Source of the DNA: Ruegeria intermedia
GTDB taxonomy: Bacteria; Pseudomonadota; Alphaproteobacteria; Rhodobacterales; Rhodobacteraceae
NCBI RefSeq assembly: GCF_900129345.1
Contig: NZ_FQVK01000023.1
Span: 1 to 64,000, forward strand
DNA: 64,000 bases
Reading direction: 5' to 3'
Each line of letters opens with the position of its first letter. Position 1 is the first letter of the stretch. Below, one piece after another: positions 7,337 to 12,425 of this stretch. The notes below the pieces were generated by a model, which was given only the letters and a program-made list of their open reading frames with translations, was not told where the DNA came from and did no database searches. The position numbers and the translations under genes were made by a program.

Positions 7337-8032
7337 ATGCTGAACGCCGTCATCGTCGCCCACGGGCAACCCTCGGACCCGGCCCCGGCCGAGGCGGCCT
7401 TGGCGCGGCTTGCCGACGAAATCGACCAGTTGACGGACCGGGTCCGCGTGACTTCGGCCACGCTGGCCGCGCCGGGGGCGCTGGAGCAGGTTCTGGAAGG
7501 CCTGGCCGGCGCAGCGGTGATCTATCCGCTGTTCATGGCGAAGGGCTGGTTCGTGACCAGCGCCCTGCCCAAACGTGTGGACGGCCACAATGTGCGGATA
7601 CTCGACCCGCTGGGAACCGACTCGGACTTGCCCCGGATCGTGGCCACCGCCCTGTCCGAGCAGTTGGACCAGCGCGGCTGGCGCGCGGTCGAAACGGACC
7701 TGGTGATCGCTGCGCACGGGTCCGGCCGCAGCCGCAACCCGTCGCTTGTTGCCAACAGCTTTGCAGACAAACTGGCCGGGTTGGTGCCGTTCCACTCGGT
7801 CCGAACAGGCTTTGTCGAAGAGGCACCGTCAATATCCGAAGCCGCCCGCGGCGCCCGCGAAACCGCGCTGTGCCTGCCGTTCTTTGCCTGCACGGGCGGG
7901 CATGTTCTGGACGATGTGCCGACCGAGCTGGCTCGCGCGGGTTTCCGGGGGCTGCAATTGCCGGTCGTCGGTGAACTGGGTGCCGTCAAACACCGCATTG
8001 CCACGGTCTTGGAGGCCGCGGTCACGCGGTGA
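7337..8032 (+). CDS. CbiX/SirB-like chelatase-family protein
   Basis: A 231-aa protein with two half-domains of the sirohydrochlorin chelatase fold. The first begins VIVAHGQPSD, the second LVIAAHGSGRSRNPS near residue 125, and a later segment is FACTGGHVLDDVP. Family members insert Co or Fe into sirohydrochlorin. No cobalamin or siroheme gene is adjacent, so the substrate is inferred from family only. A clear AGGAG lies 7 nt upstream of the ATG. It converges on the GGDEF gene with only 12 bp between them. Confidence 0.75.
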   Translation: MLNAVIVAHGQPSDPAPAEAALARLADEIDQLTDRVRVTSATLAAPGALEQVLEGLAGAAVIYPLFMAKGWFVTSALPKRVDGHNVRILDPLGTDSDLPRIVATALSEQLDQRGWRAVETDLVIAAHGSGRSRNPSLVANSFADKLAGLVPFHSVRTGFVEEAPSISEAARGARETALCLPFFACTGGHVLDDVPTELARAGFRGLQLPVVGELGAVKHRIATVLEAAVTR

Positions 8033-8044
8033 AGCCGGCGGCGC

Positions 8045-9034
8045 TCAGTGCCCGGCCTTTTCCTGCTCGCAATAGAAGCGGTGACAGCCCCGGCCGCTGC
8101 GCTTGGCTTCGTACAGGGCCACATCCGCTGCGTTGAGAATGTCGGCCGGATCCATCGACGGGATCTGCGCGCTGAGCGCGGTGCCGATACTTGCGGAAAT
8201 GGCGCAGGTCTGGCCCTGATAGTCCATCGGCTGTTGAAGCCGTGAAATAAGCCGCTCCGCGATGCGCTGCAGGACGTCTCGGTCGGACAGGCCGCGAAAG
8301 ATCAGCACGAACTCGTCCCCGCCGATGCGGGCCACCGTATCGTCGTTGCGGGTTTCTTCCAGCATGATGCGCGCAGCTTCGCTCAGAACATGGTCGCCGG
8401 CCGCATGCCCCAGTTCGTCATTCACGGCCTTGAAGAAATCAAGGTCCAGGTGCATCAGCGCAAAGGTCGCCTTGCTGGACACGAGATGTTCAAGAATGTG
8501 GTCCATCGCCCGCCGGTTCTTGAGACCGGTCAACGTGTCGGTATAGGCCTGTTCCTCGGCCGCCAGCATCGCGCCCTGCAACCGCAGGTTCAGAGACCGT
8601 GACGCCTCCATGGCGGCCGATTTCGCTTCGACCAGGTAGAGCAGTTCGATTGCCAGATCGGTGCCGGAAAAATCCGCGCTTGTCAGCGCATAGTCGCGGA
8701 CCGCGTCCAGGATCGAAATTCCGAACGACAGGTTGATGACCGCCCCGCCATCCGGCAACGGCGAGACAAGCCCCTTGAGCGCCGTTCGCGGTTCGTCGCG
8801 GAATTTCACCGACAGTTTCACACTGTCGCTTGCCATCAGGTCGCGGAACGACGTGATGGACCGGGGGCGAACCAGATCGAAAACGTCCAGGAAGGCGCGC
8901 CCCGGCATTGGCCGGTCAGAGCGCAGTTTTTGCAGGGTCGGCCCGGCCTGGCGGATGGTTCCGTCGCCATCCAGCAGGACGAACATGGGGCACAAGGTTC
9001 CCAGCAATTCCCCCAGTTGATCGTGATTCAACAT
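8045..9034 (-). CDS. HNOBA-GGDEF diguanylate cyclase
   Basis: A 329-aa protein. Residues about 1-150 match the heme-NO-binding-associated (HNOBA) PAS-like domain: FVLLDGDGTIRQAGP early, then SADFSGTDLAIELLYL and the start of a signalling helix, VEAKSAAMEAS. Residues about 165-325 are a GGDEF domain with an intact GGDEF motif and an RNDD inhibitory I-site just before it. It should make c-di-GMP from two GTP and be subject to product inhibition. No transmembrane segment is seen. Its ATG overlaps the stop of the H-NOX gene by one base (TGATG), so the two are co-translated and presumably partners. Confidence 0.92.
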   Translation of the reverse strand: MLNHDQLGELLGTLCPMFVLLDGDGTIRQAGPTLQKLRSDRPMPGRAFLDVFDLVRPRSITSFRDLMASDSVKLSVKFRDEPRTALKGLVSPLPDGGAVINLSFGISILDAVRDYALTSADFSGTDLAIELLYLVEAKSAAMEASRSLNLRLQGAMLAAEEQAYTDTLTGLKNRRAMDHILEHLVSSKATFALMHLDLDFFKAVNDELGHAAGDHVLSEAARIMLEETRNDDTVARIGGDEFVLIFRGLSDRDVLQRIAERLISRLQQPMDYQGQTCAISASIGTALSAQIPSMDPADILNAADVALYEAKRSGRGCHRFYCEQEKAGH

Positions 9035-9621
9035 CAGCTTCGTGCCCCCAGATCGAAGTTTCGGCCCTCGGCGAATGCGCTTTCGACAAGGGTCATGGAA
9101 ATGATGTCGATTCCCTTGTCATTCGTACCGGTGCGCGTCAGAAACACCAGCGCGCCGTAGTCATCGGCCATCGCCCTCAGAAGGCCGGTCATGACGCTGG
9201 AATAGCCGTCCAACCCGGGATGACAATGCAGTTCGAACTCGTTCGGCGAACACTCGATCAGTTCCAGAGCGGGCAACGTCAGATCGGCCACCGCCAGGCG
9301 CACCCGATCCGACAGATCGTCCAGCGAATGCAGGAATTCCACGTAGGTTACGCCGCCAAACCGCAACAGACGCCGCAGCCCCTCCATATTGGGGTGAGAC
9401 ACGAGATAGGTGCCCAGATCCTCGAGAAATTCGTCACGCGGGCGCTTCAACTCGGCGCACAGCGCATCGAGCAGGCGATAGGATTTGTCGCGGTCATAGA
9501 CCAGCATGGCCTCGAACTCGACGAAGCCGAGCTCGGCCACCTCGGTGGCGCGCAGCCAGCACTCGCGCCCGTAGGTCGCACAGACAAACGACTGAATGGC
9601 CTTGTTTATCAATCCGTGCAT
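9034..9621 (-). CDS. H-NOX (HNOB) domain protein lacking canonical heme residues
   Basis: A 195-aa protein starting MHGLINKAIQSFV, the classic H-NOX N terminus. The ATG at 9621 has GAGG upstream and is preferred over an in-frame ATG at 9654. H-NOX proteins bind heme through a proximal His about residue 102 and a YxSxR motif, sensing NO or O2. Here the segment FLHSLDDLSDRV puts Ser104 where His is expected, and LHCHPGL puts Cys133, Pro135 and Leu137 at the Y, S and R positions. The fold is still easily recognised. The usual neighbour, an HNOBA-GGDEF cyclase, follows directly. Whether it still binds heme is open; His98 lies nearby but out of register. Confidence 0.88.
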   Translation of the reverse strand: MHGLINKAIQSFVCATYGRECWLRATEVAELGFVEFEAMLVYDRDKSYRLLDALCAELKRPRDEFLEDLGTYLVSHPNMEGLRRLLRFGGVTYVEFLHSLDDLSDRVRLAVADLTLPALELIECSPNEFELHCHPGLDGYSSVMTGLLRAMADDYGALVFLTRTGTNDKGIDIISMTLVESAFAEGRNFDLGARS

Positions 9622-9717
9622 GAACAGCCTCAGACTTGGTATGAGTCCGATCACAGCCCAGAAATCTTAACAAACGTCGAATCCGCGCGGCCAAGTTTCT
9701 GCAAATGCAAAGTAATC

Positions 9718-9742
9718 TCACCCTGATACGACTGCAGGGTGA
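9718..9742 (-). terminator. Hairpin just after the mttB-like gene
   Basis: A perfect 8-bp inverted repeat TCACCCTG / CAGGGTGA with a 9-nt loop begins directly after the stop codon of the minus-strand MttB homologue. The following minus-strand sequence GATTACTTTGC is only weakly T-rich, so this is a probable but imperfect terminator separating it from the H-NOX gene. Confidence 0.4.
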
Positions 9743-11302
9743 TCAAAAATCCGTCGGCGCCCCGCCCTCGGCTTTGCGTCGGGCCACGAAATCGGCCAGC
9801 TCCTCGCGGATGGCCGCATCCATAGACGGTGCGTCGAAACTGCCGATGATCTCCTTGAACAGCAGGTGTGCGCGCTCGGCGGTCCAGATGCCGCCCGCGA
9901 CCTCCCAGCCTTCATAGTTCTTCCAGTCGCTCAGGAACGGCTGATAGAAGGCCGTGGTATAGCGGTCCTGCGTGTGCTGGATGCCGAAGAAGTGACCATC
10001 GTTGCCGACCGACCGGATCGCATCCAGTGCGATTTCTTCCGGGCCCGTGGCGCACAGTTCGGGCTGCATGTAGCGCTGGATCTGCTGCAGGATCTCGCAA
10101 TCCATGATGAATTTTTCGGGGCTTGCGATCAGTCCGCCCTCAAGCCAGCCGGCGGCGTGATAGACCATGTTGGTCCCCGATTGAACCGCCGCCCACAGCG
10201 AATTCGAGGTCTCCCAGATCGCCTGCCCGTCCGGGACATTGGCGGCGCATACCCCCGACGACCGCAACGGCAAACCGTAGAACCGCGCCATCTGGCCGGT
10301 CATCTGCGTCGCGCGCATGTATTCCGGCGTGCCGAAGGCCGGTGCCCCGGACTTCATGTCGACATTCGACGTGAAGGTGCCGATCACGCAGGGTATGCCG
10401 GGGCGGACATACTGGAACAGGGCGATCGCGCTCAGAGCCTCGGCCAGCGACTGCGCCACCGCACCGGCCAGCGTGACCGGCGCCATCGCCCCGGCCAGCG
10501 TGAACGGCGTCACCACGATCGCCTGTCCCCGTCGCGCCAGCCGCAGGCAGCCGTCGATCATCGGGTGGTCATGTTTCAGGGGCGAGGTCGAGTTGATGTT
10601 GGTGTACATCCGGGGCGTCGCCTCGAACGCCTCGTGGCTCAGGCCGCCGGCGATGCGGACCATCTCCATCACGTCCTCGACCCGCTCCTTGCCCAGCGAA
10701 TAAGCGTGCATGGCCTTGTCGGTCAGGGTCAGCTTGTCATACAGCACGTCCAGGTGCCGTACGCTGGCGTGGATGTCCACCGGCTCGACCGGATAGCCGC
10801 CGGCGAAGTGGATGCAGTTGAAATACTGCGTCAGCTTCAACAGGTTCCGGCACATCTCGCGATTGCCGGGCACCTTCTTGCCAATCTCCATGTCCCAGTA
10901 GTTGGGCGGCGAGGAGACGTTTCCGAACAGCAGCCGTTTGCCGCCGATCTCGATCGTGTGGTCCGGGTTGCGTGGCGTGATGGTGAAGGTGGATGGCGCC
11001 TTGCCGACCATCTCCATCACGAAGTCGCGGCCCATCCGCACGATGTCGCCGTCGACCGTGCAGCCGGCCTCGCGGAAGATCGCGATGGCCTCTTCGTTCA
11101 GAAACTGGATCCCGATTTCCTCGAGAATGCGCATCGCGCCGTCATGGATGGCTTCGACCCCCTCGGGCGGCAGCGGCTCGGTGGGGTGGTCGATATTGAT
11201 CGGCGGGTTCCACGGCATCTGGTCGATGACGGCGGCGCCCCTGCGGGCGGCGGCACCTGCGCGCCCGCCGCTGCGGCGCCTCTGTGTCCTGGTGTCGGCC
11301 AT
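9743..11302 (-). CDS. Trimethylamine methyltransferase (MttB) family protein, non-pyrrolysine type
   Basis: A 519-aa protein of the MttB superfamily: an Arg/Ala-rich N terminus, then a TIM-barrel methyltransferase body (for example INSTSPLKHD, VVTPFTLAGAMAP and GIPCVIGTFTSNVD). The frame is continuous, with no internal amber codon used as pyrrolysine, so it belongs to the non-Pyl branch. That branch includes glycine-betaine and other quaternary-amine:corrinoid methyltransferases. The substrate is not determinable here. No corrinoid protein, activator or tetrahydrofolate methyltransferase lies in the window. It is flanked by unrelated genes. Confidence 0.85.
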   Translation of the reverse strand: MADTRTQRRRSGGRAGAAARRGAAVIDQMPWNPPINIDHPTEPLPPEGVEAIHDGAMRILEEIGIQFLNEEAIAIFREAGCTVDGDIVRMGRDFVMEMVGKAPSTFTITPRNPDHTIEIGGKRLLFGNVSSPPNYWDMEIGKKVPGNREMCRNLLKLTQYFNCIHFAGGYPVEPVDIHASVRHLDVLYDKLTLTDKAMHAYSLGKERVEDVMEMVRIAGGLSHEAFEATPRMYTNINSTSPLKHDHPMIDGCLRLARRGQAIVVTPFTLAGAMAPVTLAGAVAQSLAEALSAIALFQYVRPGIPCVIGTFTSNVDMKSGAPAFGTPEYMRATQMTGQMARFYGLPLRSSGVCAANVPDGQAIWETSNSLWAAVQSGTNMVYHAAGWLEGGLIASPEKFIMDCEILQQIQRYMQPELCATGPEEIALDAIRSVGNDGHFFGIQHTQDRYTTAFYQPFLSDWKNYEGWEVAGGIWTAERAHLLFKEIIGSFDAPSMDAAIREELADFVARRKAEGGAPTDF

Positions 11303-11424: not shown

Positions 11425-12114
11425 TCAGATCCCCAACCAGGCCGGAATGTGGCCGATATCCGGCAGAACCACATCGGCCAGAGGCGCCAGGTCCTGCGCC
11501 GAGGCCATGCCCGTCAGCACACCGATCGTCGTCATGCCGGCCGCCCGACCGGCCTGCATGTCGTGCAGGCTGTCACCAACCATGGCGGTCTGCGACGGCG
11601 CGATGCCGACATGCTCGGCAAAGGCCAGCAACTGGCCCGGAGCGGGCTTGAAGCCGTGGCCGCTGTCATAGCCTGCGACGAAGTCGAACAGGTCACCGAC
11701 CCCGACCGACGCCAGGTGTTCGCGTGCCGGCATTTCACCGTCATTCGTGGCAATCCCCAGCCTTTTGCCGGCCTGTTTCAGACCGCGCAGAAATGGGGCC
11801 AGGGCGACCGCCTCGACCTGCGTCGCGCCTGCGGATTCGGCATTGAGCATCTCGATCAGACCGGCCCGCGACCATTCGGGCAGTTGCGGGGCCAGCACAT
11901 CCACGATCTCGTCGATCGTGCCCGCGATCACGATGCTGTCGGGCGCATAGGTTCCGCACACCGGATCAAATCCGATTGCCTCACCCAGCTGCGCGGCACG
12001 CGCGTCGTCGCCTCCGCTCAGCCGCCGCAGAACTGCCGCGCCGAACGCGCCCCAGGTGGCCGCAAAGTCGAACAGGGTTCCGTCCTTGTCGAACACCAGG
12101 GCTTCGATCTGCAT
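11425..12114 (-). CDS. HAD-family hydrolase (phosphoglycolate-phosphatase-like)
   Basis: A 229-aa phosphatase of the haloacid dehalogenase superfamily. It has motif I FDKDGTLFDF at residues 8-17, motif II ATNDG, and motif III/IV GHGFKPAPGQ and MVGDSLHDM. A helical cap domain lies between motifs I and II. The start was taken at MQIEALVFDK (ATG 12114), because the frame upstream adds ten residues not typical of the family. The substrate is unknown; it is a paralogue by family of the gene at 49294. It lies 26 nt downstream of the DUF3572 gene and is probably co-transcribed with it. Confidence 0.85.
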   Translation of the reverse strand: MQIEALVFDKDGTLFDFAATWGAFGAAVLRRLSGGDDARAAQLGEAIGFDPVCGTYAPDSIVIAGTIDEIVDVLAPQLPEWSRAGLIEMLNAESAGATQVEAVALAPFLRGLKQAGKRLGIATNDGEMPAREHLASVGVGDLFDFVAGYDSGHGFKPAPGQLLAFAEHVGIAPSQTAMVGDSLHDMQAGRAAGMTTIGVLTGMASAQDLAPLADVVLPDIGHIPAWLGI

Positions 12115-12140
12115 GTCGTTTTCTCCAGATTCAGGCCCGG

Positions 12141-12425
12141 TCACGTCCAGTGAACATCGGCCCTGCCCGCCAGGGCCATCCGGGCCTGCCCCGGACTGTC
12201 ATAGGGCAAGGATTTGTCGTCACAGAACGCCATGACCCACGAATCGTCAAGCATCAGAAACTCGAGCACCGACACCAGGAATTCGGGTTCCGCGGCACGA
12301 TCACGCAGATCTTCGATCGATGCGCCGGTCGAACCCAGAAAAACCGGCAGCAAATCGTCATTGCCGGCCAGCCAACCCAGCGCATTCAAGGCCAGCGTCT
12401 CGGCGTTTTCGGCGGATATCGTCAT
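12141..12425 (-). CDS. DUF3572 family protein
   Basis: A 94-aa protein with the features of alphaproteobacterial DUF3572: an N-terminal ETLALNALGWLAGNDDLLPVFLGSTG, then LEFLMLDDSWVMAFCDD. It is small, mostly helical and acidic, with no signal peptide or membrane segment. Function is unknown. It is commonly found next to a PleD-type gene in this order, and here the PleD-like cyclase starts divergently about 90 bp away, sharing the intergenic promoter space. Confidence 0.8.
   Translation of the reverse strand: MTISAENAETLALNALGWLAGNDDLLPVFLGSTGASIEDLRDRAAEPEFLVSVLEFLMLDDSWVMAFCDDKSLPYDSPGQARMALAGRADVHWT

Follow-up and report, generated by a model that had tools for sequence, protein, structure and literature searches.

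The locus analyzed here lies in a stretch of 64,000 nucleotides from Ruegeria intermedia (contig NZ_FQVK01000023.1; hereafter the window) and comprises two overlapping genes coding for an H-NOX homolog and a diguanylate cyclase (Table 1). The H-NOX frame is intact from its ATG at 9621 to the stop codon ending at 9034, and this stop codon overlaps the cyclase start codon as TGATG. Re-reading of the open reading frames, Pfam searches and an alignment to Alr2278, a Nostoc H-NOX protein of known structure, showed that the motifs, the residue numbering and the coordinates given for both genes in the original prediction were all correct. A promoter scan of positions 7900–9900 returned no promoter-like and two terminator-like sites, which is near the shuffle mean.

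Table 1. Features of the H-NOX/cyclase locus (window coordinates)
Feature	Position	Strand	Basis or remark
Diguanylate cyclase with HNOBA and GGDEF domains, 329 aa; both GGDEF and RNDD (I-site) intact	8045..9034	-	Pfam, model, motif reading
H-NOX-fold (HNOB) protein, 195 aa	9034..9621	-	Pfam, alignment, AlphaFold model, fold search
Codon 104 (TCG, Ser); canonical H-NOX has its proximal heme histidine here	9310..9312	-	Nostoc alignment
MTTB-family methyltransferase, upstream, recurring neighborhood	9743..11302	-	no shown role in the H-NOX/cyclase pair
HAD-like hydrolase, recurring neighborhood	11425..12144	-	neighborhood survey
Chelatase-like protein with a CbiX domain; its gene converges with that of the cyclase	7337..8032	+	

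The Pfam HNOB model matches residues 2–156 of the H-NOX homolog (81.7 bits, cut-off 25.5; 7.4e-23), and since this match spans the whole domain, the protein belongs to the HNOB/H-NOX fold family. Its alignment to Alr2278 (E 4.8e-21) has a sole gap at residue 36, and residue 1, counted from the ATG at 9621, aligns with residue 1 of both Nostoc H-NOX and the beta1 subunit of human soluble guanylate cyclase (sGC), showing that there is no N-terminal extension. Modeling of the fold, which had been proposed together with the original prediction, gave an AlphaFold model of the H-NOX fold (mean pLDDT 87.7, 17-row alignment). The closest structure to this model is human sGC beta1 (Z 21.9, rmsd 1.9, 178 residues aligned; Foldseek was also run), and the wild-type Nostoc H-NOX entry 2o09 follows it with a Z of 21.2.

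A heme-sensing H-NOX protein is expected to carry a proximal histidine on helix F and a YxSxR propionate clamp, and both are absent from the window protein. In the alignment to Nostoc H-NOX, Ser104 stands opposite the proximal histidine (DDLS against DNLH), and C133-H-P135-G-L137 stands opposite YQSTR, so that Cys133, Pro135 and Leu137 replace the three clamp residues exactly as had been claimed and no conserved histidine falls at the heme position. Position 115 (Arg116 in Nostoc) was dropped as a further lost clamp residue because it varies in canonical relatives too. The only histidines of the protein are residues 2, 76, 98, 132 and 134, and its cysteines are residues 14, 21, 55, 124 and 133.

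The cyclase matches HNOBA in residues 13–82 (26.6 bits, cut-off 23.4) and GGDEF in residues 163–316 (141.4 bits). Its RNDD motif starts at residue 229 and GGDEF at residue 238, leaving five residues between them, a pattern predicted for an active diguanylate cyclase, which has an RxxD motif five residues upstream of GGDEF; GGDEF, the I-site and the TGATG overlap had all been read correctly before. The model of the cyclase (pLDDT 94.1, pTM 0.67) resembles PAS-GGDEF and GGDEF structures, and human sGC beta1 appears among its structural neighbors at rank 44.

In the window's family, 394 genomes were sampled, nearly always one per genus, and 296 of them have a PF07700 match. By score, the matches form two sets, a high-scoring one of canonical proteins and a lower-scoring one that includes the window protein. 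From the latter we took 238 proteins, each from a different genome, and added the canonical protein L002 as an outgroup, giving 239 rows in all; clade counts below refer to the 238 members and percentages of conserved residues to the 239 rows. Part of the listed divergent places was taken in, and 154 genomes with unlisted places were searched in two sets, of which 79 of 80 and 74 of 74 matched. The survey omits at least ten genomes (G021, G034, G068, G147, G220, G236, G273, G329, G344 and G368), and broken, split or short copies (L042 and those of G036, G061, G176, G196 and G287) stand outside the counts. A class-wide sample of 385 genomes yielded ten matches at E <= 1e-10. Four of them are family members at E 1e-81 or better, and the remainder are the canonical protein of G294 and those of five genomes of other families (E 2e-14 to 9e-32); four of these five could be aligned at the site and keep the histidine and YxSxR, and the fifth, a shorter frame, has both in its sequence.

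Residue 104 is a proline in 171 of the 238 clade members and a histidine in 18, followed by Gln (9), Arg (9), Asn (7), Ser (6), Ala (6), Gly (4), Glu (3), Thr (2) and one each of Tyr, Lys and Asp. His104 is thus absent from 220 members, and an alignment-free recount gave the same 18 histidines save for three rows that could not be read. YxSxR occurs at the clamp in none of the 238, neither in the alignment, where a clamp column is gapped in 19 rows, nor in the ungapped sequences, whose three YxSxR matches lie near residue 175 and represent another motif. Among the best 80 of 581 named relatives (Ruegeria, Tritonibacter, Tateyamaria and others) the position is occupied by Pro in 47, Ser in 23, Ala in 8 and Asn and Thr in one each. 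The window protein is a Ser104 member, as are many Ruegeria relatives. A sequencing error, which had been raised for the case that all orthologs kept the histidine, is rejected, as all 80 of these relatives lack it.

Other positions are far better kept. Features present in at least 90% of the 239 rows include H2, W22, E67-D68, R83-R84-R87, P117, G146 and A152-D153-D154-Y155-G156, and P117 is found in every one of the 238 clade members. His2, the arginine patch RRLLRF (83, 84, 87) and ADDYG (153, 154), each at about 90% or more in the clade, were not seen in the canonical sequences compared and possibly form a contact surface for the cyclase. His2 is also the best-kept histidine of the group (216 of 238); His76 (152 of 231 rows with a letter) and His98 (127 of 239 rows) are moderately kept. 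Two other heme ligands suggested earlier, His132 and His134, do not rank among the top four residues of their columns in the group. None of the columns has cysteine in 70% of the 239 rows or more; Cys133, in place of the YxSxR tyrosine, is kept in 133 of 238. This frequency is above what the remark on absent conserved cysteines in a 2022 review suggests (PMC8738867).

We further compared the residues lining the former heme pocket, defined as the contacts given in a published account (PMC6225106) plus residues 5, 9 and 110–111. Hydrophobic residues persist at these positions, whose entropy averages 0.94 bits compared with 1.84 bits elsewhere. Residues 133, 135 and 137 of the clamp change freely from row to row (1.9–3.5 bits). 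Pocket side chains are no bulkier than in canonical relatives, with summed volumes of 1943–1952 for the group means (225 gap-free rows) and 2001 for the window protein against 2011–2140 for Nostoc H-NOX and seven canonical relatives. However, core-like hydrophobic columns outside the pocket are conserved to a similar degree (fraction 0.13 for random sets), and pocket conservation therefore fails as evidence for a ligand.

The history of residue 104 was reconstructed on a FastTree tree of both proteins from which column 104 had been removed. The distribution of histidine and other residues requires 15 changes on this tree, compared to 17–19 (mean 18.5) in 50 shuffles, and 17 changes on a tree of the H-NOX protein. 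A history of losses only was rejected, being 16 log-likelihood units worse than one with gains and losses on the FastTree tree, a quick reconstruction with a single outgroup; the model with gains has an extra rate parameter and leaves the root free, and the direction of change is unsure and the root state undecided. An absence of NO chemistry as the cause of histidine loss is unsupported. His104 occurs in 9 of 74 genomes with NorB and 9 of 164 without it, a non-significant difference that ignores kinship (odds ratio 2.4, Fisher p 0.11), and nine independent pairs gave a median p of 0.25 in a sign test, the few informative ones leaning to histidine with NorB. A weak link between His104 and NorB thus remains conceivable; the window genome itself carries NorB though its H-NOX protein lacks His104. 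Likewise, the idea that a second HNOB copy has taken over was discarded, as His104 is present in 0 of 15 genomes with at least two HNOB matches and in 18 of 223 others (p 0.61; second copies as counted from profile matches).

While residue 104 varies, the gene pair does not. Each of the 239 survey rows, i.e. the 238 clade members and the outgroup L002, has an HNOBA-GGDEF gene directly after the H-NOX gene and in its orientation; GGDEF could be read in 238 of them, the contig of L095 ending inside the motif, and the I-site spacing in 233. The persistence of the pairing and of the fold motifs whatever the residue at 104 points to selection on the H-NOX protein as a partner rather than as a heme holder. 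Relatives with the histidine and YxSxR adjoin HNOBA kinases in L003, L360, L361 and L362; the neighbor in L363 is an HNOBA protein with traces of a receiver, and that in L006 a kinase to which Pfam assigns no HNOBA. As these canonical relatives adjoin mostly HNOBA proteins, an sGC-like H-NOX/HNOBA pair is the probable origin of the module. Canonical pairs of the same family (L002 and L003) and of other families (L360–L363) share with the window the fold and the adjoining HNOBA partner; they differ in keeping the histidine and YxSxR and in partners that are mostly kinases, whereas the window pair has neither ligand motif and an HNOBA-GGDEF partner. L002, from the same family (G294), combines a canonical H-NOX protein with an HNOBA-GGDEF-EAL protein and may show what the module looked like in its ancestral, heme-sensing form.

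Upstream of the pair, genes for MTTB methyltransferases, HAD hydrolases or DUF4153 proteins recur in several orders and nearly always on the same strand, none of the three being present in 17 of 170 loci. MTTB matches were found in 100 of 169 survey loci of at least 5 kb, on the same strand in 98 of 101, and these recurring neighbors fit vertical inheritance of an old locus. On the other side, the CbiX-domain protein has a match in 33 of 80 named loci and in 1 of 169 survey loci.

Lee-Lopez and Yukl (2022; PMC8738867), in the section of their review on this subject, describe a very large fifth H-NOX group ('Group 5') found with the Paracoccus denitrificans protein, in which less than 10% have the proximal histidine, most have a proline and no cysteines are conserved. 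A figure legend of the review names GGDEF, MTTB and HAD among the neighboring families, and the text calls it an open question what the majority lacking the histidine sense. The surveyed clade is like Group 5 in its few histidines (18 of 238) and many prolines (171 of 238), in its GGDEF, MTTB and HAD neighbors and in its kept fold; while proline is the rule in Group 5, the window protein has the serine that 23 of the best 80 of 581 named relatives share (8 have alanine). The ligand loss is real, and its kind is already in print as Group 5. An H-NOX homolog without heme ligands and with an HNOBA-GGDEF partner, as originally predicted, is therefore supported, but this is the usual state of a published, family-wide orthologous group and not a peculiarity of this genome.

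The nearest system studied by genetics is HnoX-DgcA of P. denitrificans, which likewise has no axial histidine and an H-NOX gene that overlaps the GGDEF cyclase gene (PMC5588039); it was analyzed in its own host, whereas the window pair is known from sequence. The relevant passages of that study state that the ligand histidine is missing in the H-NOX proteins of P. denitrificans and Rhodobacter sphaeroides, that the hnoX mutant is partly biofilm-deficient and the dgcAB (double cyclase) mutant overproduces biofilm, and its authors read the P. denitrificans protein as NO-responsive. A later report confirmed the biofilm defect and found c-di-GMP below detection (PMC12582929, in the part concerned). 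Since c-di-GMP could not be measured there, cyclase inhibition in P. denitrificans is indirect.

The window protein shares 51% identity with L218, the presumed R. sphaeroides ortholog in our survey, and 49% with the survey locus L052, which we take to be the Dinoroseobacter shibae H-NOX and which has His104 but no YxSxR. Three articles (PMC7232146, PMC6473078 and PMC8846402) cite Bedrunka et al. 2018 for the finding that the D. shibae H-NOX protein inhibits Dgc1, two of them specifying the NO-bound form, and Table 4 of PMC8846402 lists this protein among the heme NO sensors shown by direct assay. The D. shibae pair is thus of the same clade and partner type as the window pair and also lacks YxSxR; unlike the window protein, its H-NOX has His104 and a reported NO sensing via heme. 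As the presumed D. shibae protein belongs to the histidine-bearing minority, its behavior is not simply transferable to the window protein, and as it is listed as a heme NO sensor despite lacking YxSxR, loss of this motif alone does not exclude heme. An H-NOX fold that lacks heme and, as in the window, comes together with a PAS-like domain and a cyclase is also described for the pseudo-H-NOX of the sGC alpha subunit (PMC8196705, in the passage on this domain); there, an N-terminal extension fills the pocket and the cyclase is a guanylate cyclase, whereas the window protein has no extension and a GGDEF cyclase as partner.

Taken together, we judge it somewhat better than an even chance that the locus encodes a Group 5 H-NOX/cyclase module in which the H-NOX protein is a regulatory, most likely inhibitory, subunit of its own cyclase that has lost the canonical heme-NO input. 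The H-NOX protein would contact the HNOBA (PAS-like) and coiled-coil part of the co-encoded cyclase and would thereby restrain it. With the proximal histidine and the propionate clamp both missing, the canonical input would be gone in the window member, and its activity would be set by its amount, as a constitutive brake, or by a signal that is not read via histidine-ligated heme. We infer that it inhibits its partner and does not bind heme canonically; the inhibitory role is most likely by analogy to the P. denitrificans mutants, which concern a relative without the histidine, and to the inhibition of Dgc1 in D. shibae.

It is unlikely, though a case can be made, that the window protein still binds heme and senses NO, with His2, Cys133 or His98 taking over as axial ligand or with a heme that has no ligand from the protein. 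HNOBA-type canonical relatives have a tyrosine in place of His2 (Nostoc and six of seven), and in H-NOX simulations residue 2 uses its backbone N to contact the heme propionates, or it touches the carboxylates of drugs that mimic them (PMC6387030 and PMC6225106, in the parts dealing with these contacts). The frequency of Cys133, the persisting pocket residues including the invariant P117 and the presence of NorB in the window genome, which makes NO a plausible signal, point the same way. However, His2 is equally common with His104 (15 of 18) and Pro104 (155 of 171), so that it is no replacement tied to the loss, Cys133 does not track the loss either (8 of 18 with His104, 101 of 171 with Pro104), and YxSxR is missing at the clamp throughout the surveyed clade. 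Rather doubtful is a reading in which a ligand other than heme occupies the old heme pocket, making the protein a novel type of sensor that reports a small molecule to the cyclase. The conserved pocket hydrophobics are not replaced by bulkier side chains and may leave room for a ligand, with a mean summed volume below that of Nostoc H-NOX and the seven canonical relatives. The next structural neighbors after the H-NOX entries include TRAPP subunit 3 with its covalently bound palmitate (at a middling Z of 9.2), and deletion of hnox in P. denitrificans raises acyl-homoserine lactone levels, as reported in the pertinent part of PMC12582929; against this, ordinary core packing suffices to explain pocket columns that are conserved like the rest of the core. 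The more specific version, a pocket turned binding site for a hydrophobic signal such as a fatty-acyl compound or an acyl-homoserine lactone that controls c-di-GMP, with His104 lost and possibly regained several times, appears improbable.

Redox sensing through cysteines, as in the heme-free Vibrio cholerae H-NOX, could draw on the five cysteines of the window protein and is very unlikely. In the zinc site of the Shewanella oneidensis and V. cholerae proteins, the cysteines used lie from residue 139 or 149 on (according to the passage on this site in PMC7108781), whereas the three late cysteines with a His or Gln of this type are absent from the window protein, which has no cysteine past residue 133; the Group 5 section of PMC8738867 also states that conserved cysteines are absent, though Cys133 is frequent in our survey. 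A decaying gene or a sequencing error, finally, has hardly any probability. Broken relatives do exist, with two frames each in L042 and G036, in-frame stops in G176 and G196 and a split over two contigs in G061, reflecting decay or assembly faults. The window frame, by contrast, is intact, RRLLRF and ADDYG are kept above 90% at every position, Ser, Ala, Pro, Asn or Thr replaces the histidine in each of the best 80 of 581 named relatives, and hnox and dgc stand together at all 239 surveyed loci.

Beyond the published passages, our analysis adds the absence of YxSxR across the surveyed group, the pairing with the cyclase at every locus surveyed, the presence of the histidine in the presumed D. 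shibae protein and the lack of a significant link to NorB; we did not find these points in the literature consulted, which lacks several key papers. At least 238 of 394 sampled genomes of the family have a member of this clade. Group 5-type proteins are often called NO sensors, yet 220 of 238 are without the residue that makes H-NOX a heme sensor, and the one member for which the articles consulted list heme-based NO sensing from a direct assay, that of D. shibae (PMC8846402, Table 4), appears to fall within the histidine-bearing minority. The contrast between the D. shibae and Ruegeria proteins makes the signal of the majority without the histidine directly testable.
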